Below, piece by piece: positions 7,789 through 41,680 of a stretch of 64,000 nt of DNA; position 1 is the stretch's first letter; each line of letters begins with the position of its first letter. The notes beneath the pieces are model-generated. The model searched no databases, was not told where the DNA came from, and was given only the letters and a program-made list of their open reading frames with translations. The position numbers and the translations under genes are program-made. The DNA comes from Haloglomus salinum (GTDB lineage: Archaea > Halobacteriota > Halobacteria > Halobacteriales > Haloarculaceae): positions 2,976,001 through 3,040,000 of the forward strand of contig NZ_CP101153.1 of the NCBI RefSeq assembly GCF_024298825.1, written 5' to 3'.

Positions 7789-9219
7789 ATGTCGTACGAT
7801 TGTGCGTTCCTCGCCGACCTGCTGCCGGAGGGGCAAGTCTCGTTCGGTGAGTCCGACCGTGGGAATCACGCTGCCGACTGGGGAGCCGAGGAGGCCGGCC
7901 GCGGCGTCACGCCGGACGCCGTCGTCTGGCCCGAGTCGACCGAGGACGTGAGCACGGTCCTCGAGGCCGCCAACGACCGCGGGGTCCCCGTGACGCCGTA
8001 CGCCGCGGGCACCTCGCTGGAGGGCAACGCCGTGCCGCAGTTCAAGGGTATCTCGATGGACGTGACCCGGATGAACGACGTGCTGGAGGTCCGTCCGGAC
8101 GACTTCCAGATAGATGTCCAGCCCGGCGTGATGGGCTCGAAGGTCGACGAGACCGTCGAGAGCGAGGGGCTGTTCTTCCCGCCGATGCCGTCCTCGGCCA
8201 ACATCTCGACCATCGGTGGGATGATCGTCAACGACGCCTCCGGACAGAAGACCGTCAAGTACGGCGAGGTGAGCGACTGGGTGCTCGAGCTGGAGGTCGT
8301 CCTCGCGGACGGGACCGTCATCGAGGCGGGGTCGAAGGCCGTCAAGACCAGCGCCGGCTACAACCTGAAGGATATCCTCGTCGGCAGCGAGGGGACGCTC
8401 GGTGTCGTCACGCGCGCCACCCTCGAACTCGAGGGGCTGCCCGAGCAGATTCGCGGCGGCCGCGCCGTCTTCGGCGACCTCGACGACGCGACCAGCGCCA
8501 TCTTCGACGCCGTCCGCTCGGGCGTCGACGTGGCCAAGATCGAGCTCATCGACCCGCTCGCCGCCGAGATGTCGAACCGTTACCTCGACACGGGGCTCCC
8601 GGACAAGCCGATGGTGTTCCTGGAGTTCCACGCCAACCACGGCGTCCAGGAGGAGATCGACTTCTGCGAGGCGATCTTCGAGAGCCACGACGTGGAGCTG
8701 TTCGACATGAGCGAGGACGACGAGCGGATGGCCGAACTCTGGAAGGCCCGGACGGAACTCGCCTTCGCCGTCCAGAGCTACGACCCCGACCTCCGGCCGA
8801 TCCATCCCGGCGACGTGACCGTTCCGATCTCGAAGTACCCCGACATCATCCGCTACGCGAAGGAACTCGGCGAGGAGCACGACATCATGGTTCCCGTCTT
8901 CGGGCACGCTGGCGACGGCAACGTCCACTACTCCGTGATGGTCGACCCCGAAGACGAGGCGATGGTCGAGACGGGCGAGGAGATCTACGACTCGGTCGTC
9001 CGCAAGGCCATCGAGATGGGCGGCACCTGCACCGGCGAGCACGGTATCGGCGGCGGCAAGCGGGAGTACCTCGAACTCGAACACGGCGAGGGGGGCGTCG
9101 AGGCGATGCGCCGCATCAAGGGTGCGCTCGACCCGAAGGACACGCTCAACCCCGGGAAGATATTCCCCGAGACCATCGAGGAGGGCGGCCGGGTCCACCT
9201 CTCGGCCGACGACGACTGA
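7789..9219 (+). CDS. GlcD/D-lactate dehydrogenase-type FAD oxidoreductase
   Basis: A 476-residue flavoprotein of the GlcD/DLD family, which oxidises 2-hydroxy acids such as D-lactate or glycolate. The FAD-binding PCMH domain covers about residues 45-220, with PYAAGTSLEGNA, NDASGQKTVKYG and TSAGYNLKDILVGSEGTLG motifs. The C-terminal substrate domain carries GHAGDGNVHYS and the CTGEHGIGGGK motif with conserved histidines, and ends with the typical LNPGKIFP. No iron-sulfur cysteine motif is fused to it. The frame is open to 7561, but homology and the TATA box favour the ATG at 7789. The electron acceptor is not evident. Confidence 0.88.
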   Translation: MSYDCAFLADLLPEGQVSFGESDRGNHAADWGAEEAGRGVTPDAVVWPESTEDVSTVLEAANDRGVPVTPYAAGTSLEGNAVPQFKGISMDVTRMNDVLEVRPDDFQIDVQPGVMGSKVDETVESEGLFFPPMPSSANISTIGGMIVNDASGQKTVKYGEVSDWVLELEVVLADGTVIEAGSKAVKTSAGYNLKDILVGSEGTLGVVTRATLELEGLPEQIRGGRAVFGDLDDATSAIFDAVRSGVDVAKIELIDPLAAEMSNRYLDTGLPDKPMVFLEFHANHGVQEEIDFCEAIFESHDVELFDMSEDDERMAELWKARTELAFAVQSYDPDLRPIHPGDVTVPISKYPDIIRYAKELGEEHDIMVPVFGHAGDGNVHYSVMVDPEDEAMVETGEEIYDSVVRKAIEMGGTCTGEHGIGGGKREYLELEHGEGGVEAMRRIKGALDPKDTLNPGKIFPETIEEGGRVHLSADDD

Positions 9220-9361
9220 CGACGGCCGTCCCATCGACCGGTTCCATCCGGTGGGCACGGCCGGGAGCGCGTCCCGTCGCCCGCCGTGGCGGTGACACCG
9301 GCACGCGGCAAGCATCCCGGTAGCGCGAACCTTTTCGTTCCGGCGAGTTCCCCATCGGACG

Positions 9362-11503
9362 ATGGCTGCGCTCCGACCGAGCCACGGTCTGTCGGTCGTA
9401 TCGACCCTCGTCCTCGCCCTCCTCCTCGCCATCCAGCCGGCGGCGGCCGCCGCGATGGCCCCCGGGCCGACCACCGTCGGGGCCACGCCACGCCCGGCGC
9501 TGGCGCAGTCCGACGGCACGAACGAGAGCGATGGGCTCGACGCCGACCACGTCTACGTCGAGCGCGACGGGGACGTGATACTGGTGTCGAACGGCACGGA
9601 CGCCGCCAGCAGGGCCAACACCACCGTCGAGGACGACTCGCTCGACGAGGTCCGCAACGCCTCGTTCGGCCTCGTCACGGGTCAGGGACTGCTCTACGGG
9701 CTGTACGAGACGGACCGCTCGGAACTCGCCGAGGACGGCGAGACGTTCCCGGGGACGTTCTCGGTCGCGACGCGTGCAGCGCCCGACCGGCTCGCCGCTG
9801 GCGGGACGTTCGCGACGGAGCGCCCGGCCCAGCTGCAGGCGTTCCGGCTGGACATCGAGGGCGCGCGGACGGACGAGCGCGCCGGCGCGACGCTCGACGG
9901 GCGCGCGACGGTGACCGTGAACGGCTCCGCGGCCGCGGGCGCGGTGCTGGAGCGCGCGGAGACCCGCTCGTACGCCCGGGTCGGGCCCCGGAACCTCACG
10001 CTCCGGAGCAACGGGACGGCACGGGTCGCGCCCTCCGCAGCCGGGACGGCCGACCCGTTCCGGTTCTCGGCGGTCCTGACCGAGGAGCCGGGCGTCTACC
10101 GGCTCGCGGTCGAGCGCAACAGCAGCGTGGGTGCCCAGGCGGTCGGGAACTGGTCGACCCGCGAGCGGGCCCGGGAGACGCTCGAACGGCGGTTCGCCGG
10201 CCAGGGCGCCCGGCAGTTCGCGAACACGTCGCTTCGGCTCCGGGCGTACGACTTCCGGAACGCGACGGACGGCGAGGGCGGTCGTCTCGTCGTCAGCTAC
10301 GTCGTCCGGTACGAGGGGATGAAGGCCCGGCTGCGCCCCCTGGCGCTGGGGGCGCTCACGGCCGACGAGGAGAACGGGCTCGACCCGCTGCAGGCCCAGC
10401 GCATCACCGCGGACCTGTTCGCGCTCCGGGTCGAGCGAGCCGCGGTCGACGCGACCTACCGTGACGGGCAGTTCGAGGGCTCGACGGAGCTCCGCCTGAA
10501 TCGCTACGACCGGGCCGTCGACGGCGCGCTCGACCTGGCGACCGCGTACAATCTGACCGCCAACGAGACCGTCGCGCGCTACGTCCGGGGCTTCCGGACC
10601 CGGTTCGACGCTGCGCGTGAGGCGGGCCTCGTCCGTGAGTACCGCCTCGGAACCACCTACCAGCGACCCGGCTCCCGTGAGGCGACCGTCGAGGTGACCA
10701 GTCGCTACCGGACCACCAACTGGGACGCGTACGTCGCCGAGCTGGACGAGCGCGGCGTCACCCGGCTCGACCTGACGGGCGACCTGCACGCGCGCGCCGA
10801 CGGCGACCGGCTCCGGGGCGACGCGAGCGTGGCAGCCGCCCGACCGGGGCTGCTGGCCGACGCCGTCGACGGTCTCCGGAACCTCTCGCGCGCCGGCGTC
10901 GAGGACGAGTTCGCCTCGCCCGCCGAACGCGCCGCAGAGCGCGAGGAGTTCAACGACACCCGGGCGGTGCTCGACGCCTTCGAGCGGAGCGACCTCCGGA
11001 CGGCCCGGTTCGAGCTGAACGTGACCGACGAGGCCGCGCGCGTCGAGGGTGCCGCGCGGTTCGGCAACCTGAGCGCGTTCCGTCCGCTCCTGCGCAACGA
11101 CACGACCGGCGAACTGCCGACCGACCTGGTCGTCCGCGAGGCCGTCGCCCGGCCGCGACCCGATGGCGGCTCCGTGGTGTACGTCTACGCCGAGGGGGCG
11201 GTGCCGGTCAGGCCGTCGGAGGCCGACGTCCGGGCACTCGCGGCGGTCAACGAGAGCATGACGGTCCACATGCCCGGCGAGTGGGACCGGTCGTTCCCGC
11301 GCGTCGACCGCGAGCGGGCGTACGGGGTCCTCCGGGCGACCCCACCCGAACCAACGCCGACGGAGACGCCACTCCCGCCAACCGACGGCACGAACGGGAC
11401 CAGAAGCGACGGACAGCCCGGCTTCGGCCCGGCTGTCACGGCCGTGGCGCTCGTGGCCGGCGTCGTGCTGCTGGCCCGGCGGCGAAGCGAGCACGCCGAA
11501 TAG
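9362..11503 (+). CDS. Secreted surface protein with PGF-CTERM anchor
   Basis: A 713-residue secreted protein. Residues 1-31 form a Sec-type signal sequence rich in Leu/Ala. The large middle part is rich in Asp/Glu/Arg and contains many N-x-S/T sequons (for example NGT, NTS, NLS, NDT), consistent with N-glycosylation outside the cell. The C-terminus has a Thr/Pro-rich stalk, then PGFGP at residues 686-690, one hydrophobic helix and an Arg-rich tail, the tripartite PGF-CTERM signal processed by archaeosortase A in haloarchaea. The ectodomain fold is not one I recognise. A TATA-like element (CCTTTTCG, about 9331) lies upstream. It stands alone between the glcD-like gene and convergent small genes. 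Confidence 0.8.
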   Translation: MAALRPSHGLSVVSTLVLALLLAIQPAAAAAMAPGPTTVGATPRPALAQSDGTNESDGLDADHVYVERDGDVILVSNGTDAASRANTTVEDDSLDEVRNASFGLVTGQGLLYGLYETDRSELAEDGETFPGTFSVATRAAPDRLAAGGTFATERPAQLQAFRLDIEGARTDERAGATLDGRATVTVNGSAAAGAVLERAETRSYARVGPRNLTLRSNGTARVAPSAAGTADPFRFSAVLTEEPGVYRLAVERNSSVGAQAVGNWSTRERARETLERRFAGQGARQFANTSLRLRAYDFRNATDGEGGRLVVSYVVRYEGMKARLRPLALGALTADEENGLDPLQAQRITADLFALRVERAAVDATYRDGQFEGSTELRLNRYDRAVDGALDLATAYNLTANETVARYVRGFRTRFDAAREAGLVREYRLGTTYQRPGSREATVEVTSRYRTTNWDAYVAELDERGVTRLDLTGDLHARADGDRLRGDASVAAARPGLLADAVDGLRNLSRAGVEDEFASPAERAAEREEFNDTRAVLDAFERSDLRTARFELNVTDEAARVEGAARFGNLSAFRPLLRNDTTGELPTDLVVREAVARPRPDGGSVVYVYAEGAVPVRPSEADVRALAAVNESMTVHMPGEWDRSFPRVDRERAYGVLRATPPEPTPTETPLPPTDGTNGTRSDGQPGFGPAVTAVALVAGVVLLARRRSEHAE

Positions 11504-32482: not shown

Positions 32483-34480
32483 TCAGTCGTCCGCGGCGGC
32501 CTGGGCGTCGGCGTCCCCTTCGGCCGGCGTCCGCCCGTAGATGTCGTCGATGAGGTGTTCGTGGCGGCTCCGGATGATGCGGCGCTTCTTCTTCAGCGAC
32601 GGCGTGAGCGCGTCGTTGTCCGCTGTCCACTCCTCCGGGGCGAGGCGGAACTCCTTGATGGTCTCGTGGTGACCCAGCCGTTCGTTGACGGCCTCGACGT
32701 CCTCGGCGACCCACTCGCGGACGCGCTCGTCGTTCGCGACGGCCTCGGGGTCCTCGGGCAGGTCGATACCCGCCTCGTCGGCCCACTCGCGGAGCTGCTC
32801 GAAGTTCGGCACGATGACCGCACCGATGAACTTCTCGTTGTCACCGACGACCATCACCTGGTCGATGCGCGCGGAGGTGGCGAACTCGTCCTCGATGGGC
32901 TCGGGAGCGACGTTCTTGCCCGTGTCGAGCACGATGAGGTTCTTCCGGCGGTCGACGAAGGAGTAGTAGTCGTCCTCGTCCCGGGCCACGATGTCGCCGG
33001 TCCGGAACCAGCCCGTCTCCGTGAACGCCTCCTCGGTCTTGTCGGGCTTGTTCCAGTAGCCCTCGAAGACGTTGGGTCCTTTCGCCAGCAGCTCCCCCAC
33101 CTCACCCTCGGCGGCCTCCTTCTGCTCGGGCGAGACGACGCTCCGGTCGAGCTTGAGCTGGACGTCGTGGAGTGGCGGCCCCATCGTCCCGACCTTGATA
33201 TCCTCGGGGGGATTGAACACCAGCCCCGGCGCCGTCTCGGTCAGGCCGTACCCCTCGATGATGGTGATGCCCATCGCCCGGTAGAGCTTCGCGAGATCCT
33301 CCGAGAGGGACCCACCGCCGGAGACGAACATCTCGATGTTGCCACCCAGCGCCTCGCGGACCTTCGAGAAGACGAGTCTATCTGCGAGCTTCATCTTCGT
33401 CCGGAGGCCGAGCCCCGGCGACTCGGCATCGTCGTACGCCTTCCCGGTCTCGACTGCCCACTCGAAGATGCGCTTCGAGACGGGCGAGTCGCTGGCCTGC
33501 TCGCGCATCCCGTTGTAGATGCGCTCGTACACCCGGGGGACGGAGTTGGCCACCTGTGGTTGCACCTGCTGGATGTCGTCGGCGATGGTGTCGGTCGACT
33601 CGGCGTAGCCGATGGTGATGCCGGAGGCGAGCGACTGGAAGTGCCCCGACCGCTCGAAGGCGTGCGCCAGCGGCAGGAAGGCAAGCGAGGTCTTGCCGGG
33701 CTCGAACTTCGGCATGTCCTCGGGCTTGTCCGGGCGGGGGCCGAGCCGCTTGCGGACGGCGTTCATCAGGCTCCGCCAGTGCCTGTGCTGGAGCATCACC
33801 CCCTTCGGGTCGCCGGTGGTCCCGGAGGTGTAGACGAGCGAGGAGAGCTCCGTCCAGTCCCGGCGGTCGAGCCAGCGCTCCACCGCGTCGCGGTCGAACT
33901 CCTCGCTGCCCAGTTCGTACACCTCGGCGAGCGTGTACGTATCGGCGTCGAGCGGTTCGGTAACCTCGTCCGGCACCTCGTCCAGCGTGACGACGAACGA
34001 GAGCGGCAGTTCGCTCTCGACCTCGGCGAGCGTCTCCAGCAGGTCGGCGTTCTCCACGACGACGCCCATCGAGCCGGGGTCGTCGAGGAGGTACTTCACC
34101 TGCCGGGGGCTCGACTCGGTGTAGACCGTCGTCGCCACGCCCTCGGCGGTCTGGATGGCCATGTCCGCGTGGGCCCACTCCATCCGCGTGTCGGCGTAGA
34201 TGCTCACGCGGTCGTCGGCCTCGACACCCAGTTCGCGGAAGCCGGCCGCCAGCCGCGCGACGATATCACCCACCTCCTCGTACGTGAGCGCGGCGTACTC
34301 TCCCGACGGCGCCGCCGGGACGACGTTGCCCGAGACGAGCGACCGGTCGTAGATGCCACCCTTGTAGAGCTGGCAGTCCAGCTCGCCGTGTTGGTCCACC
34401 GCGTCGAAGAACGCCCTCGGGATGGTCGTCTCCCCCATAACCTCGTCCGTGTACTCCGCTTCCGCCTGGCGCCAATCCAT
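32483..34480 (-). CDS. Long-chain acyl-CoA synthetase (FAA1/FadD type)
   Basis: A 665-residue AMP-forming acyl-CoA synthetase. It has the phosphate loop YTSGTTGDPKG, the gate region with FLPLAHAFERSG, the YGLTETAPG motif, the WFRTGDI motif and the KNLIVLDTGKNVAPEPIE segment, with a C-terminal domain ending in TPSLKKKRR. Large size and the inserts are those of the long-chain (FAA1) group rather than the acetate group. Haloarchaea have isoprenoid lipids, so substrates are probably dietary or degraded fatty acids. A close paralogue of almost the same length is at 53360-55363. Confidence 0.92.
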   Translation of the reverse strand: MDWRQAEAEYTDEVMGETTIPRAFFDAVDQHGELDCQLYKGGIYDRSLVSGNVVPAAPSGEYAALTYEEVGDIVARLAAGFRELGVEADDRVSIYADTRMEWAHADMAIQTAEGVATTVYTESSPRQVKYLLDDPGSMGVVVENADLLETLAEVESELPLSFVVTLDEVPDEVTEPLDADTYTLAEVYELGSEEFDRDAVERWLDRRDWTELSSLVYTSGTTGDPKGVMLQHRHWRSLMNAVRKRLGPRPDKPEDMPKFEPGKTSLAFLPLAHAFERSGHFQSLASGITIGYAESTDTIADDIQQVQPQVANSVPRVYERIYNGMREQASDSPVSKRIFEWAVETGKAYDDAESPGLGLRTKMKLADRLVFSKVREALGGNIEMFVSGGGSLSEDLAKLYRAMGITIIEGYGLTETAPGLVFNPPEDIKVGTMGPPLHDVQLKLDRSVVSPEQKEAAEGEVGELLAKGPNVFEGYWNKPDKTEEAFTETGWFRTGDIVARDEDDYYSFVDRRKNLIVLDTGKNVAPEPIEDEFATSARIDQVMVVGDNEKFIGAVIVPNFEQLREWADEAGIDLPEDPEAVANDERVREWVAEDVEAVNERLGHHETIKEFRLAPEEWTADNDALTPSLKKKRRIIRSRHEHLIDDIYGRTPAEGDADAQAAADD

Positions 34481-34597: not shown

Positions 34598-35863
34598 ATG
34601 GTCGACCGCCCACGGATGGACGAGGCCGACCCCCTGTCGTGGATGCGCGAACAGATGCCCGTACTGCGAGCGCTCGGTGCCGCCGGGGAGCCGCTGGCCG
34701 GGACCACTGTCGCCGTCGCCTCCCACCTCGAGCCCTCGACCGGCTTCTTCATCGAGACGCTCCACGAGGCCGGCGCCACGGTGCTGGCGACGGCCAGCGA
34801 GGCCGACAGCACCCACGACGACGTGGTCGCGTATCTGGACGGACTGGAACGCGTCGAGACGTTCGCCGATAGCTCGATGGACGACGCCGCGCTCGACGAG
34901 GCTCACCGCCGTCTCCTCGACCGCGAACCCGAGTTGCTCCTGACCGACGGCGCCGAGCTCGTCGTGAAAGCTCACGACGATGTCTCGGATGTGGCTGATT
35001 CGGTCCGGGCGGCCGCCGAGCAGACCACCTCCGGGGTCGGCCGGGTCGAGGCGATGGCCGACGCCGGCGAACTCACCATCCCGGTCTACCGGGTCAACCA
35101 CACCCCGATGAAACACCAGTTCGACAACGTCCACGGGACCGGCGAGAGCGCGCTCACCAACATCGCGATGACGACGAACACGATACTCGCCGGGCGCACG
35201 GTCGTCGTCGCGGGCTACGGCTACGTCGGGAAGGGTGTCGCCCGGAAGGCCCGCGACCTCGGTGCGGAGACGGTCGTCACGGAGATCGACCCCCGGAAGG
35301 CGCTGAAAGCACGGATGGACGGCCACCGCGTCATGCCGATGGCCGAGGCCGCCGCCGAGGGGGAGCTGTTCGTGACTGCCACGGGCAACTGTCGTGTCAT
35401 CCGCGACGAGCACTTCGAGCGGATGCCCGACGAGGCCATGCTCGCGAACGTCGGACACATGGACGTGGAACTCGACCTCGATGCGCTGGCCGAGCGCGCG
35501 ACCGAGGTGACCGAGACCGACCAGGGCATCACCCGCTACCGCCTCCCCGACGGCCGCAGACTGGACGTGCTCGCCCGAGGACGGTTGGTCAACCTGGCAG
35601 GCCCGTTCAGTCAGGGGCATCCGGCGGCCGTGATGGACACCACCTTCGGCGCGATGTTCGTCGCCGGCCGAGACCTCGCCGACGGGCCCGTGCCCGGCCC
35701 GGGCGTCCACGACCTGCCCGACGAACTGGACCGCGAGGTGGCGGAACTGAAACTCGACGCGATGGATATCGACATCGACGGGTTGACCGACAAGCAAGCG
35801 GCGTATCTGGACTCCTGGAACCGCGAGGAGACGCTGGCGGAGTGGGAGTCGGAGCGGTCCTGA
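34598..35863 (+). CDS. S-Adenosylhomocysteine hydrolase-like protein (divergent paralogue)
   Basis: A 421-residue protein of the SAHH family. The NAD-binding part is complete (VVVAGYGYVGKGVA, residues 202-215), as are FDNVHGTGES, GHMDVEL (His287) and VNLAGP with His341. The C-terminus ends at LTDKQAAYLDSW, lacking the KPDHYRY tail as in other archaea. Relative to human SAHH (numbering recalled from memory), His55, Asp131, Lys186, Asp190, Asn191, His301 and His353 are kept (His43, Asp117, Lys172, Asp176, Asn177, His287, His341), but Glu156 is Gln142 and Glu59, which contacts the adenine, is Ser47. The substrate may differ from S-adenosylhomocysteine. A canonical copy is probably elsewhere in the genome. 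Confidence 0.75.
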   Translation: MVDRPRMDEADPLSWMREQMPVLRALGAAGEPLAGTTVAVASHLEPSTGFFIETLHEAGATVLATASEADSTHDDVVAYLDGLERVETFADSSMDDAALDEAHRRLLDREPELLLTDGAELVVKAHDDVSDVADSVRAAAEQTTSGVGRVEAMADAGELTIPVYRVNHTPMKHQFDNVHGTGESALTNIAMTTNTILAGRTVVVAGYGYVGKGVARKARDLGAETVVTEIDPRKALKARMDGHRVMPMAEAAAEGELFVTATGNCRVIRDEHFERMPDEAMLANVGHMDVELDLDALAERATEVTETDQGITRYRLPDGRRLDVLARGRLVNLAGPFSQGHPAAVMDTTFGAMFVAGRDLADGPVPGPGVHDLPDELDREVAELKLDAMDIDIDGLTDKQAAYLDSWNREETLAEWESERS

Positions 35864-35927: not shown

Positions 35928-37112
35928 ATGCGCCTGTCCGAGTCCGACCGGCTGTTCCGCGACACCCTCCGGGAGTTCCTGGAGCGCGAGGTCGCGCCGG
36001 ACCTGCCCGAGGCCGACCACGAACCCGTCTCGAAGGAGCAGGCCGTGGCCTACCAGCGCGACCTGGGCGACCTCGGTGTCGGTCCGGGTGCCGGCGAGGA
36101 TGCCTCGTTCGAGGACCCGGTGACCTACGCCGTGACCATCGAGGAGATAGCACGCGTCTGGCCCAGTCTCGTGATGATCATCACGATGGGGTTCCCGTTC
36201 CCGGCGGCACTGGTACCGTACGCCGGCGACCGGACCCGCGAGGCGCTGGGTGACCGGTCGCGGGCGGGCGAACTGGTCGGCTGTCTCGCCGTCACGGAGC
36301 CGGCGGGCGGCAGCGACACCACCAGCCCCGCGACGACCGCCGAGCGCGACGGCGACGAGTACGTCATCGACGGGGAGAAGACGTGGGTGTCGAACGCGAC
36401 CATCGCGGACGTGGCGCTGGTGCTGGCGACCGACACGGACACGGGCGCGCGGGACTTCTTCCTCGTCGACGCCGAGACGACGAGCCTGGAGTCCCGGGAG
36501 CTGGACAAGCTGGGGTGGAAGGGGTCGCCGACCGGCCAGCTGTTCCTCGACGAGTGCCGGATTCCGGTCGAGAACCGGCTGCTGAACGCCGTCGGCCGGA
36601 TGGCGAGCGAGGGTGGCACGAACGTGCTCGAGAACCCGATATTCCGGACCCAGGACCCACAGAACGCCATGTTCGCCTACATGCGGACGGGCATGGCGTC
36701 GATGGCGGTCGGCATCATGCAGGCGTCGTTCGAGGCGGCGCTGGACTACACCACCGAGCGGACCGTCGGCGGCGACGCCATCGCCGGCAAGCAACTGGTG
36801 CAGGACCACCTCTACGAGATGAAGGCCGGCATCGAGACCGCGCGGCTGCTCACCCACCACGCCGCTACGCACGTCGCCGAGGGGCACGCCGACGCCCGGC
36901 TGCTCTCCTCGCTAGCGAAAGGATACGCCTGCGAGACGGCCGTCGATGTGGCCAGCCGCGCGGTCCAGGTCCACGGTGCCAACGGTCTCTCGACGGACTA
37001 CCCGGTGGAGCGCTACCTCCGGGACGCCCGGACGACCACCATCCCCGATGGGACCACGGAGATACAGAAGCTCATCGTCGGGTCGGAGCTGACCGGCTAC
37101 CCGGCGTACTGA
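35928..37112 (+). CDS. Acyl-CoA dehydrogenase family protein
   Basis: A 394-residue flavoprotein of the acyl-CoA dehydrogenase family. The middle domain has TEPAGGSD and EKTWVSNA, and the C-terminal domain carries VDVASRAVQVHGANGL with the FAD-adenine contacts. In the region where medium-chain enzymes have the catalytic base in YEGT, it reads PDGTTEIQ, so the residue is Asp. That can occur in some subfamilies that place the base on another helix, so activity is likely but the substrate is unclear. It is not joined to an ETF gene. It follows the SAHH-like gene by 64 bases on the same strand. Confidence 0.85.
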   Translation: MRLSESDRLFRDTLREFLEREVAPDLPEADHEPVSKEQAVAYQRDLGDLGVGPGAGEDASFEDPVTYAVTIEEIARVWPSLVMIITMGFPFPAALVPYAGDRTREALGDRSRAGELVGCLAVTEPAGGSDTTSPATTAERDGDEYVIDGEKTWVSNATIADVALVLATDTDTGARDFFLVDAETTSLESRELDKLGWKGSPTGQLFLDECRIPVENRLLNAVGRMASEGGTNVLENPIFRTQDPQNAMFAYMRTGMASMAVGIMQASFEAALDYTTERTVGGDAIAGKQLVQDHLYEMKAGIETARLLTHHAATHVAEGHADARLLSSLAKGYACETAVDVASRAVQVHGANGLSTDYPVERYLRDARTTTIPDGTTEIQKLIVGSELTGYPAY

Positions 37113-37150: not shown

Positions 37151-38197
37151 TCAGTCGTCGGTCCCCGGTGCCGGCCGCTCCGCGAGGAACGCCGCCAGCG
37201 CCTCGCGGGTCCCCGTCGCTCCGTTCTCGATGAAGTAGGTCGCACAGGCGTTGCCGAGCGCCAGCGCCGCCTCGGGGTCGAGCCCGCTCCCGAGAGCGTG
37301 GGCCAGTCCCGCCGTGAACCGGTCGCCCGCGCCCGTCCGGCGGGTGATGGAGCGGGCGTCGAAGTTCTCTACCCGGGCCATGCCCCCGCCGAGTCGGTCG
37401 TCGGTGGCCGACAGGGCCGCGGGTTCGTCGTGGCGGACGACCCCCGCGATGTCCAGCGCCGCGCGGAGGTCGCGCTCGCGTTCCGGGCGGGCGTCCTGCG
37501 TGACCCCGAGGCCCTTCGCCAGCGCCCGGAGTTCCCCACCGTTCGCGCTCAGGACCACCGGGCAGGTCTCGTCGAGGTGCGCCATCGCGTCGCGAAGTTC
37601 CTCGATATCCTGCTCGACGCTCCCGCTCAGGTCGCCCGGGTCCAGCACCACCGGACACGCGATGTCGTAGGTCGCGAGCGTCCGCATCGTCGGCATCAGC
37701 TCCCGGAACGACACCCAGTTGGCCAGGCAAACCGAGCCCGCCCGCTCGATGCGGCCCCGGAACGGCGCCTCGTTCTCGTGGAGCTCCGCGAACGACCAGC
37801 CGTCGATGTCCGGCGGCTCCCGCGAGAACATCAGGTCCGTCCGGTCGAACGAGAGGACGGTCACCTCGGCGGGCGGTCCCATCGAGTACGTCTCGAACGG
37901 GAACGTCAGCAGCGGGTGGTCGAGGTGGCCGAACAGCGTCACCTCGTCGCCCAGCGCGTGGGCCTGCCGAGCGGCGTTGACCGCCTGGCCGCCCGGCTGC
38001 CGATCGTACTCCTCCAGCCGGACCGACCGGATGGCGCCCGTCGAGATTCGGCGCCCGAACTCCTTCCGCGACGACACGCGGTCACGCCCGCCGTCGTAGA
38101 CGTGACAGAGGATGTCCACGCTCCCGTCGGGGAGACAGACGACCGGGAGGGTGCCGGACGGGTCGGAGAGGTGGGCGACGAGTCGCTCGTACGGCAT
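37151..38197 (-). CDS. PfkB family carbohydrate kinase
   Basis: A 348-residue ribokinase/PfkB-family protein that would phosphorylate a sugar or nucleoside with ATP. Signatures are PGGQAVNAA with its sugar-binding glycines (about residues 68-76) and the C-terminal anion-hole motif RRTGAGDRFTAGLA with catalytic Asp. The N-terminal 40 residues and the EEYDRQPGG approach differ from ribokinase and fructokinase, so the substrate is not defined. It converges on the acyl-CoA dehydrogenase-like gene. Confidence 0.83.
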   Translation of the reverse strand: MPYERLVAHLSDPSGTLPVVCLPDGSVDILCHVYDGGRDRVSSRKEFGRRISTGAIRSVRLEEYDRQPGGQAVNAARQAHALGDEVTLFGHLDHPLLTFPFETYSMGPPAEVTVLSFDRTDLMFSREPPDIDGWSFAELHENEAPFRGRIERAGSVCLANWVSFRELMPTMRTLATYDIACPVVLDPGDLSGSVEQDIEELRDAMAHLDETCPVVLSANGGELRALAKGLGVTQDARPERERDLRAALDIAGVVRHDEPAALSATDDRLGGGMARVENFDARSITRRTGAGDRFTAGLAHALGSGLDPEAALALGNACATYFIENGATGTREALAAFLAERPAPGTDD

Positions 38198-38633: not shown

Positions 38634-38730
38634 TCTTGTCGAACCTTCTACGGCTCAGGAGCGTTGCGAACTGCTCCGCGTTCGTCAACCCGTGGGCCGT
38701 GACTGCGGGCGGAATCAGCTAACCCGACGA

Positions 38731-38761
38731 TTAAGTACAACAGGGTACGACTACCAGGTAG
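38731..38761 (+). promoter_or_regulatory. thiB promoter with palindrome at the start codon
   Basis: TTAAGTAC (38731-38738) is centred about 26 bases before the thiB GTG start, so the transcript should be leaderless. Between it and the start lie two overlapping dyads: GGTA-CGAC-TACC (38744-38755) and CTACC-A-GGTAG (38751-38761), the second covering the first base of the start codon. A regulator bound here would block transcription or initiation. No TPP riboswitch sequence is present. Confidence 0.45.
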
Positions 38762-39825
38762 TGAATCGACGGAGCTTCCTCGCAGCGGCGGGCGGCGCGA
38801 CGACGGTCACGCTGGCCGGTTGTACCTTCGGCAGCAATCCCGGCCGTGGCGACGGCAGCAGGGACACGCTGGTCGTCGGCACGTACAGTTCCCTCATCGA
38901 CTCGCCCTCCTCCTCGCCGGGTGCGTGGCTCAAATCCACGTTCGAGGAGGAGTTCGACATCGACCTGGTGTGGCAGACCCCGAGCAACGAGCTGAACCAC
39001 TACGTTCAGCGCCAGCAGGCGGGCGTGGATATCGAGGCCGACCTCTACATGGGGCTCAATCCCGAGGACCTCGTCCGCGTCGACCGGGAGCTGGACGAGG
39101 CGCTGTTCGCCGAGGCCGGTGACGTCGAGGGGCAGTCCGATATCAAGTCCGGGCTGCAGTTCGACCCGCAGAACAGGGCCCTCCCGTACGACACGGGCTA
39201 CGTCAGCCTCGTCTTCGACGGGACCGAGATGACCGCACCGGAGACGTTCGAGGGACTGCTGGCCGACGAGATGCAGGGCGACCTCATCGCGCAGAACCCC
39301 AGCAGTTCGTCGACGGGCCGGGCATTCCTCCTGCACACTGTCAAGGAGTTCGGACCCGATGGCTACCTCGACTACTGGGCGGACCTGCAGGCCAACGACG
39401 TGCAGGTACTCGGGTCGTGGGACGATGCCTACAGCGCCTGGGGCAGCGGCGAGGCGCCGATGGTCGTCTCCTACTCGACCGACCGGGTGTTCGCGGACGA
39501 GTCGGGAGCGAACCTGGAGGAGCACCGAATCCGGTTCCTCAACGACCAGGCGTACGCCAACCCGGAGGGGATGGCCGTCTTCGCCGACAGCGACCGGCCC
39601 GAGGCGGCCCGGCAGTTCATGTCGTTCCTCCTGCGCCCCGAGATCCAGGGGGAGATCGCCGTCCGCAACGTCCAGTTCCCCGCCACCGACACGGTCATCC
39701 TCCCCGAGGACTACGCCGAGCTGGCCCGGGAGCCCCCCGAACCGGTGACCTTCACCTACGAGGAGCTACAGGGGAACGTGAGCGACTGGGTCTCCGACTG
39801 GGAGCGCCAGTTCGCCGGTAACTGA
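38761..39825 (+). CDS. thiB: Thiamine-type ABC transporter substrate-binding lipoprotein
   Basis: A 354-residue solute-binding protein of the ThiB/TbpA group. The start is a GTG that opens MNRRSFLAAAGG, a Tat signal, with lipobox TLAGC (Cys21). The core has VVGTYSSLID, ALPYDTGYVSLVFD and NPSSSSTGRAFLL, with the WDDAYSAWGSGEAPMVVSYST region that in ThiB lines the thiamine site. It would sit on the outer face of the membrane and pass the ligand to ThiP. The next gene starts 5 bases after its stop. Thiamine is the best substrate from family resemblance; sulfate or iron carriers are related, so it is not proven. Confidence 0.85.
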   Translation: MNRRSFLAAAGGATTVTLAGCTFGSNPGRGDGSRDTLVVGTYSSLIDSPSSSPGAWLKSTFEEEFDIDLVWQTPSNELNHYVQRQQAGVDIEADLYMGLNPEDLVRVDRELDEALFAEAGDVEGQSDIKSGLQFDPQNRALPYDTGYVSLVFDGTEMTAPETFEGLLADEMQGDLIAQNPSSSSTGRAFLLHTVKEFGPDGYLDYWADLQANDVQVLGSWDDAYSAWGSGEAPMVVSYSTDRVFADESGANLEEHRIRFLNDQAYANPEGMAVFADSDRPEAARQFMSFLLRPEIQGEIAVRNVQFPATDTVILPEDYAELAREPPEPVTFTYEELQGNVSDWVSDWERQFAGN

Positions 39826-39829
39826 GCCG

Positions 39830-41680
39830 GTGACCGGACAGCGTCCAGCGAGCGACGAGGCGTCGGCGAGCGACGGCGGAGGGCCCGCGGCCGGGCGCTT
39901 CGGCAGCCTGCGCCGGGTCCGCGCGGGCATCGAGCGGCGGTCGCTCCCGATGCTCGCGGCCGCCGTCCTCGCGCTGCTGGTCGTGCTGTTCTACTACCCG
40001 GTCGCGACGGTGTTCGTCGACGCCGTCCTGGTCGAGGGACGGCTGACACTCCGGGTGTTCGCGAGTATCCTCACGGACCCGTTCTACCTCGGGGAACTCG
40101 CGCGGCTGTTCGCCGGTGACTCGCCGGTGGCCGTCCTCCGGGCGCTGCTCTCGGCGGACCGGCGGCTCGGCATCGTCGGCTTCACCGCGTACCAGGCGGC
40201 GCTCTCGACGGTCGTCAGCGTCGCCGTCGGGGTGCCGCTGGCGTACCTGCTGGCCCGGTACGAGTTCCCCGGGCGCCGGACGGTGCGCTCGCTGACCATC
40301 CTCCCGTTCGTCCTGCCCTCCATTATGGTCGCGGTCGGCTTCTTCGCGGCGTTCGGCGCCGACGGGACGCTGAACGCCGTGCTCGGCGCCGTCGGCCTGG
40401 GGCCGGTGGACCTCCTGCCGAGTCTCGAGGCCATCGTCGTCGCCCACGCGTTCTACAACGCGCCGCTGGTCGCGCGCATCACGACCGCGTCGTGGGAGTC
40501 GGTCGACGCCAGCGCCGTCGAGACGGCCCGGAGTCTCGGCGCGGGCCCCTTCCGGGCCTTCCGTGACGTGGTGTGGCCGCAGGTCTACCCGGCGGTGCTG
40601 ATGAGCGCGGCGCTGACCTTCGTCTTCACCTTCGGCACCTTCCCCATCGTGCTCGCGCTGGGTGGGTTCGAACTGGCGACCCTGGAGGTGTTCATCTACG
40701 GGCTCATCCGCGACCTGGCGTACGCCGAGGGCGCGGCGCTGGCGCTGCTCGAACTGGCCATCTCCCTGTCGGTCCTGTACGGCTACCTCCGGTACGAGGC
40801 GGCGCACACGGTCGAAGCGGGCAGCATCCGGCCCCAGGAACGCCGGCCCCTCCGGCCGCCGTCGTGGTCGCTCCGCGAACTCCTCCCCCGCATCGGGCTG
40901 GCAGCCTACGCCGTCGTCGCGCTCGTGCTGTTCTGTCTTCCCATCGCGAGCATGGTGTACGCCAGTCTCTCGGGACCGACGGGGCTCACGCTGGAGCACT
41001 ACCGCTTCCTGCTGGAGCGCCAGGTCACCGGGGCGGCGTTCCAGGTCCGGCCGTGGCCCGCGGTCCGGAACTCGCTGCTGTTCGGGGCCGCGGCGCTGGC
41101 GGTGGCGCTCCCGATGGGCGTCGTCGTCTCGGTGCTGACGACCCGTGATTACGCCGGCCGGGAACTGGTCGACACCATCGCGATGGCGCCGCTCTCCGTG
41201 TCGAGCATCGTCGTGGGGCTGGGACTGCTCCGCGGGCTCGTCTTCGGCGTCGAACTCGGCGGCGTGCGCGTCGCCGTCGGCGGAGCGCTGGCCATCGTGG
41301 CTGCCCACGCCGTCGCGGGCTACCCGTTCATCGTCCGGGTCGTCGCCCCCGGCCTGGCGTCGCTGGACCGGCAGCTGGTGGAGTCCGCGCGGGCACTGGG
41401 CGCGCCGCGCGCGCGTGCGTTGCTGGACATCGAACTCCCGCTGGTGTGGCCCGCGGTCGTCGCCGGCGCCGCCTTCGCCGCCGCCATCTCCATCGGCGAG
41501 TTCTCCGCGACGGCCGTCCTCGCCTCGGGGACGGGCCAGTACACGATGCCAATCGCTATCGAGCGGTTCATCGGCCGACGGCTCGGCCCCGCGACGGCGA
41601 TGGGCGTCGTCCTGCTGGTCGTGACGAGCGGGAGCTTCCTCCTCATCGACCGGTTCGGGGGTGACCGCGTTGGCCTCTGA
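39830..41680 (+). CDS. thiP: Thiamine-type ABC transporter permease, fused two-domain
   Basis: A 616-residue membrane protein made of two permease halves, as in ThiP, with about twelve hydrophobic segments. Each half has an EAA-type loop that contacts the ATPase: ETARSLGAGPFRAFRDVVWP (first half) and ESARALGAPRARALLDIELP (second half), both in pieces in the coupling position. It starts with GTG 4 bases after thiB and overlaps the ATPase gene by 20 bases, so the three genes form one operon. Confidence 0.88.
   Translation: MTGQRPASDEASASDGGGPAAGRFGSLRRVRAGIERRSLPMLAAAVLALLVVLFYYPVATVFVDAVLVEGRLTLRVFASILTDPFYLGELARLFAGDSPVAVLRALLSADRRLGIVGFTAYQAALSTVVSVAVGVPLAYLLARYEFPGRRTVRSLTILPFVLPSIMVAVGFFAAFGADGTLNAVLGAVGLGPVDLLPSLEAIVVAHAFYNAPLVARITTASWESVDASAVETARSLGAGPFRAFRDVVWPQVYPAVLMSAALTFVFTFGTFPIVLALGGFELATLEVFIYGLIRDLAYAEGAALALLELAISLSVLYGYLRYEAAHTVEAGSIRPQERRPLRPPSWSLRELLPRIGLAAYAVVALVLFCLPIASMVYASLSGPTGLTLEHYRFLLERQVTGAAFQVRPWPAVRNSLLFGAAALAVALPMGVVVSVLTTRDYAGRELVDTIAMAPLSVSSIVVGLGLLRGLVFGVELGGVRVAVGGALAIVAAHAVAGYPFIVRVVAPGLASLDRQLVESARALGAPRARALLDIELPLVWPAVVAGAAFAAAISIGEFSATAVLASGTGQYTMPIAIERFIGRRLGPATAMGVVLLVVTSGSFLLIDRFGGDRVGL

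Follow-up and report, generated by a model that had tools for sequence, protein, structure and literature searches.

A divergent haloarchaeal branch of the S-adenosylhomocysteine hydrolase family with a fixed active-site substitution and recurrent importer neighbours

Introduction

S-adenosylhomocysteine hydrolases (SAHH) have regulatory relatives in animals. For example, AHCYL1/IRBIT is an SAHH-fold paralogue that stands beside canonical SAHH, carries an N-terminal extension and has lost the catalytic set. In the mouse enzyme, the structural account of PMC4647836 has the ribose 2'-OH bound by Glu156 and Asp190, the 3'-OH by Thr157 and Lys186, and the 5'-OH by His55, Asp131 and His301; Leu54 packs on the base, and Cys79 and Asn80 line a putative homocysteine channel. 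The base is read by a short fingerprint: enzymes with HxExK prefer S-inosylhomocysteine (SIH) and those with HxTxE prefer S-adenosylhomocysteine (SAH), according to the comparison by Koeppl et al. (PMC10978960). Searches of the open-access literature turned up no description of a paralogous SAHH in haloarchaea.

Here we analyse such a paralogue, SAHH2, encoded in a stretch of 64,000 nucleotides of Haloglomus salinum (NZ_CP101153.1, positions 2,976,001 to 3,040,000; hereafter the window, whose numbering we use unless a contig is given). A first-pass annotation had described it as an SAHH paralogue with changes in the catalytic Glu and the adenine pocket, which may act on another nucleoside thioether such as SIH or on none.

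Results

An SAHH-family protein with a changed active site

The SAHH2 gene (34598..35863, forward strand, as are all features within it) encodes a protein of 421 amino acids, identified from the open reading frame, Pfam and PDB matches and an AlphaFold model. Sequence comparison shows that the protein is SAHH over its whole length, with the best PDB SAHHs at E = 1e-93, and both Pfam domains score above their cut-offs (PF05221, 87.5 bits; PF00670, 160.1 bits). The start and the reading are kept in the Haloglomus halophilum copy (91% identity). The model (residues 7-421, pLDDT 92.5, pTM 0.89) has the SAHH fold, which together with the two domains places the protein in the SAHH superfamily. Its best PDB match is the Pyrococcus SAHH (Z 55, 43% identity), and the whole fold resembles that of the archaeal HxExK enzymes from Pyrococcus furiosus (7R37/7R38) and Methanococcus maripaludis (7R3A), with Z of 54-55 and 38-43% identity.

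We aligned the protein to solved SAHHs and to haloarchaeal copies. The alignments agree with the first-pass annotation that human Glu156, the catalytic 2'-OH contact, is replaced by Gln142 (35021..35023) and Glu59 by Ser47, and they restore the Glu at neither position; Thr57 corresponds to Glu45. The protein thus reads EQTTSG where the canonical motif is EETTTG. Its nucleobase-binding fingerprint, H43-L-E-P-S47 (34724..34738), is neither the HxTxE(Q) of human and other SAH-preferring enzymes nor the HxExK of SIH-type archaeal hydrolases (PMC10978960). The replacement of the human N80-P-L-S-T motif by E68-A-D-S-T72 (34799..34813), also reported in the first pass, was found again; human C79 and N80 are the residues described as lining the putative homocysteine channel (PMC4647836).

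The NAD site and the remaining catalytic residues are retained, as had been claimed. With human equivalents in brackets, these are H43 (H55), D117 (D131), T143 (T157), K172 (K186), D176 (D190), N177 (N191), H287 (H301) and H341 (H353), so that the full His/Asp/Lys/Asp/His set of canonical AhcY is present. The human numbers mostly follow PMC4647836, with those of N191 and of the motifs assigned from the alignments. K172 to D176 are encoded at 35111..35125, and the NAD-binding glycine motif GYGYVGKG (G206-G213), which falls in invariant alignment columns within the PF00670 match, at 35213..35236. H287, the equivalent of the gate residue His301 (35456..35458), is followed by Met288 and not by Phe.

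SAHH2 is a separate and conserved clade

Full-length SAHH2 proteins from 29 genomes form one clade (support 100/100) whose stem measures 0.88 changes per column; every canonical haloarchaeal SAHH and every outgroup SAHH in the tree falls outside it. The window copy lies within a five-member subclade (100/100, stem 0.61). Using an identity of at least 53% to the window protein together with the SAHH2 motif as criteria, we found SAHH2 in 16 of 59 relatives and in 19 of the 243 genomes of the order with at least 90% completeness, spread over seven families. Each of the 19 has two or more SAHH-family matches. Among 295 genomes of the phylum, none outside the order had SAHH2 by score (the seven matches are all within it), and in the 23 of the other loci whose motif was read it was always EETTTG.

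We compared the 29 SAHH2 proteins with 45 canonical haloarchaeal copies. Two partial SAHH2 sequences from G015 are excluded from all counts out of 29: L022frag, with the motif EQTTAG, and L073, with a frame broken before the motif. The same draft, metagenome-like assembly carries a truncated SAHH2 (L069:7930-8529) directly before a full copy (8687-9940). The motif is EQTT[AS]G in every SAHH2 and EETTTG in every canonical copy: site 142 is Gln in 29/29 vs Glu in 45/45, and site 145 is Ala or Ser vs Thr, again without exception. Two other sites separate the groups completely, site 120 (Glu vs Asp) and site 42 (Ser or Thr vs Met or Leu). Site 67 is Ser in 28 of the 29 and Cys in all 45; site 68 is Glu in 25 of the 29 and Asn in all 45. 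Site 47 behaves differently, with Lys 37, Thr 6 and Ser 2 among canonical copies and Lys 21, Ser 4, Asn 3 and Val 1 in SAHH2. Because it varies in both groups, Ser47 by itself is a minor change and says little. The weight that the first pass had given to the loss of Glu59 therefore falls away, although the substitution itself stands: Glu is the human and crenarchaeal state at this site, where archaeal enzymes carry Lys, Thr or Ser. Gln142 is the strong change of the two.

The retained residues are equally constant. H43, D117, T143, K172, D176 and H287 are present in 29/29 SAHH2 proteins and N177 in 28/29; the residue after H287 is Phe in 24, Arg in 3 and Met in 2. Given the site roles in the mouse enzyme, the residues for 3' oxidation and 5' elimination are intact in SAHH2; what differs is a single 2'-OH contact, a base-stacking residue and the wall of the channel. 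The 2'-OH contact (Glu156) is the only invariant change among the known ligand contacts; those in the base pocket are Met to Ser/Thr at site 42 and the variable residue 47. A reading of the adenine pocket as the main change is not supported. Read from these residues, the pattern suggests a shift in specificity and not a loss of chemistry.

SAHH2 is under purifying selection and shows no decay. The dN/dS ratio is 0.137 between the window copy and its sister and 0.10-0.145 in four other SAHH2 pairs (0.067 for a canonical pair), which argues against the earlier suggestion that the protein acts on nothing, in the sense of a decaying gene. In terms of family models, the window protein scores 405.8 bits against TIGR00936 (ahcY), below the cut-off of 497.6, and four other SAHH2 proteins also fail (454, 417, 456 and 466 bits). 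All tested proteins pass the laxer cut-off of NF004005 (275), which explains why the genomes label SAHH2 proteins plainly as adenosylhomocysteinase. The idea of a paralogue with an evolutionarily fixed active-site change, outside the strict AhcY group, is thus borne out by both alignments and TIGR00936. SAHH2 falls within the SAHH superfamily but outside the strict AhcY group and, as judged by the fingerprint of the window copy, outside the SIH hydrolases.

SAHH2 shares with archaeal HxExK enzymes the NAD site, the catalytic His/Asp/Lys/Asp/His, the HxE Glu at base N1 and the short archaeal C-terminus. It differs in having Gln in place of Glu156, Ser or Thr at the human Leu54 site where those enzymes have Leu, Ile or Met, Glu instead of the conserved Asp at 120 and S-E-x-x-S-T for [SC]-N-P-L-S-T, and the window copy also has Ser for the Lys of HxExK. 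Like AHCYL1/IRBIT, SAHH2 is a paralogue beside a canonical SAHH, but it has no extension, as family homology begins before residue 16, and of the catalytic set it has lost only Glu156.

The canonical copies and S-inosylhomocysteine

SAHH2 is not the sole SAHH of the H. salinum genome (a single contig of 4.19 Mb, 99.65% complete). A canonical gene (G000:C1:2479780-2481009) lies 0.5 Mb from SAHH2. Its product is 50% identical to SAHH2 and falls in a separate clade of the same family; it reads EETTTG and NPLST and passes TIGR00936 (546 bits). A gene for a DadD-like deaminase (G000:C1:2476709-2477881) lies at a gap of about 1.9 kb from it.

The first-pass annotation had offered SIH as an example of a different substrate for the paralogue. 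This does not fit the canonical copies: 37 of 45 in haloarchaea already have HxExK, whereas the window copy of SAHH2 reads HLEPS. DadD-like deaminases, which score below the NCBIfam cut-offs, are present in 243/243 genomes; among the 79 of these with both gene coordinates recorded, 65 have one within 5 kb of canonical SAHH. SAHH2 has such a deaminase next to it only at L070, where it starts 43 bp after the gene. The HxExK fingerprint and the linkage to DadD make the canonical haloarchaeal copy the likely SIH enzyme, and we dropped SIH as the lead for SAHH2, keeping it as a rival. As the Glu of HxE is retained in 29/29 SAHH2 proteins and the Lys in 21/29, a purine base is still plausible.

Importer genes adjoin SAHH2 in many genomes

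Importer genes adjoin SAHH2 in 16 of 29 loci, and they are of two unrelated types. In 12 loci these are three genes of a QueT-family ECF transporter (S component, EcfA fusion and EcfT), adjoining SAHH2 or within about 2 kb of it. The S component scores 57.9 bits against Pfam QueT (cut-off 33.7); at L058 it was identified by only some of the searches. In the four other loci, a gene for a BMP/PnrA-like lipoprotein of a nucleoside ABC transporter lies some 30 to 230 bp beyond SAHH2 on the same strand, with genes for an ATPase and two permeases after it. This linkage of SAHH2 to two unrelated importers is new here.

The QueT-like S component is present in 11 of 19 genomes with SAHH2 and in 7 of 224 without it (n = 243; Fisher p = 5.5e-10, a test that ignores phylogeny). 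The best copies are 63-100% identical to the query in the 11 and 49-60% in the 7; in one of the former, G115, the copy is on a contig other than that of SAHH2. The seven genomes without SAHH2 (G014, G071, G099, G104, G111, G158 and G224) carry a sister group of these S components. BMP relatives are widespread (171/243 genomes); three linked to SAHH2 are 66-100% identical, and the next is at 48%. Large plasmids (L161, L162) of Natrononativus amylolyticus and Natronosalvus halobius carry SAHH2 and the ECF transporter, and on these named plasmids the genes for the QueT-family S component, EcfA, EcfT and 'adenosylhomocysteinase' stand in a row.

The published QueT family members transport queuosine precursors of the deazapurine type and not thioethers (PMC11130926). 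Salvage of preQ0 or queuosine-type compounds gave no pattern: QueC (TIGR00364), for preQ0 synthesis, is above its cut-off in 7 of 11 genomes with SAHH2 and the ECF transporter, and it is also absent from some without SAHH2, so that no such pathway explains the pairing of SAHH2 with QueT. Disposal of MTA was rejected because MTA phosphorylase (TIGR01694) showed no anti-correlation, being above its cut-off in 12 of 20 genomes with SAHH2, that of the window included, vs 9 of 20 without; a thirteenth, G115, was just under it. An SDR protein, considered as a sugar-epimerase partner, occurs in the retrieved surroundings of 7/29 loci (60-86% mutual identity), but its family is found in 71/243 genomes regardless of SAHH2. 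Neither the cbi-like (cobalamin) genes that adjoin SAHH2 in three members of a single genus (L103-L105) nor the paa-like (phenylacetate) genes in two members of another (L058, L101) are general; both were named by eye from sequence, except for one PaaI-type thioesterase match.

The window's own locus

The neighbours of SAHH2 in the window are of another kind. An acyl-CoA dehydrogenase gene (35928..37112, forward strand) lies 64 bp downstream, and an AMP-binding acyl-CoA synthetase (32483..34480, reverse strand) is the divergent neighbour. SAHH2 and the dehydrogenase occur together in H. salinum and H. halophilum, and neither orthologue was found in two further genomes from this genus, G001 and G003 (the latter 81% complete). 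No importer lies near SAHH2 here or in the other members of its five-member subclade, and neither importer subfamily was found anywhere in the window's genome. Further along, a PfkB-family kinase gene (37151-38197; 83 bits against Pfam Khk, above the cut-off) is convergent with the dehydrogenase, and genes of a thiamine/iron-type ABC transporter occupy 38692-41680 (binding protein TIGR01254, 131 bits; permease PF00528).

Discussion

Our preferred explanation, held with moderate confidence, is that SAHH2 is a respecialised hydrolase acting on a nucleoside 5'-thioether, or an otherwise 5'-substituted nucleoside, that differs from the cell's own SAH and SIH and is often imported. SAHH2 would then be an old, separate haloarchaeal branch of the family that presumably retains SAHH chemistry: a tightly bound NAD would oxidise the ribose 3'-OH, the 5' substituent would be eliminated and water would add back. 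The substrate in many species is probably a purine-like nucleoside supplied by a dedicated importer, and the reaction would most likely be C5' hydrolysis, or its reversal, on a purine nucleoside distinct from the SAH and SIH that the cell itself makes. Counting against this are the window copy, with acyl-CoA gene neighbours and no importer, and the fact that sequence alone fixes no substrate. We infer the role of the window's five-member subclade from clade membership alone. A more specific version, possible but tentative, is that SAHH2 is a new NAD-dependent nucleoside 5'-substituent hydrolase which, with dedicated QueT-type ECF or PnrA-type ABC importers, salvages from the environment a purine nucleoside distinct from both SAH and SIH; a different 5' thiol or a modification at the 2' position would be examples.

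Several other explanations bear on the same evidence. SAHH2 might be a second SIH or SAH hydrolase, a redundant or condition-specific isoenzyme with the same substrates and altered kinetics. The retained fold and catalytic set, the N1-contact Glu45 with the frequent Lys47 and the adjoining deaminase at L070 all agree with this, and extra SAHH isoforms with differing fingerprints are described in Methanohalobium and Methanohalophilus (PMC10978960). Yet such an isoenzyme would explain neither the long stem, the invariant Gln at the 2'-OH contact and the Glu that mostly replaces Asn80 of the homocysteine channel, nor a linkage to importers, which have no role in an intracellular methyl cycle; moreover, the canonical job is already taken in all 19 SAHH2 genomes of the order. 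We consider it rather unlikely. The fixed loss of the Glu156 carboxylate would also suit a catalytically dead or weak regulator or binding protein, comparable to the animal relatives. This is improbable given that the other catalytic residues examined are kept, that dN/dS is low, and that SAHH2 lacks a regulatory extension and is co-directional with importers instead of regulated pathways. Finally, SAHH2 could amplify a known side reaction of SAHH and act as an NAD-dependent nucleosidase, oxidising C3' of an imported nucleoside and expelling the base. Free nucleobase is a side product in all SAHH set-ups described in PMC10978960, and both the importers and the invariant change at the 2'-OH contact accord with this. 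However, such an enzyme has no need of the 5'-chemistry residues H43, D117 and H287, which SAHH2 never loses, and we regard it as very unlikely.

If the salvage reading is true, the swap of Glu to Gln would mark a changed recognition of the ribose or of the leaving group. With its fixed catalytic-residue swap and two unrelated importer types, SAHH2 is a candidate, open to direct test, for a housekeeping enzyme turned to scavenging nucleosides, and it would also hint at what an ECF transporter subfamily carries. As for the canonical copies, their linkage to DadD-like deaminases predicts a methyl cycle through S-inosylhomocysteine, by which haloarchaea may recycle SAH.
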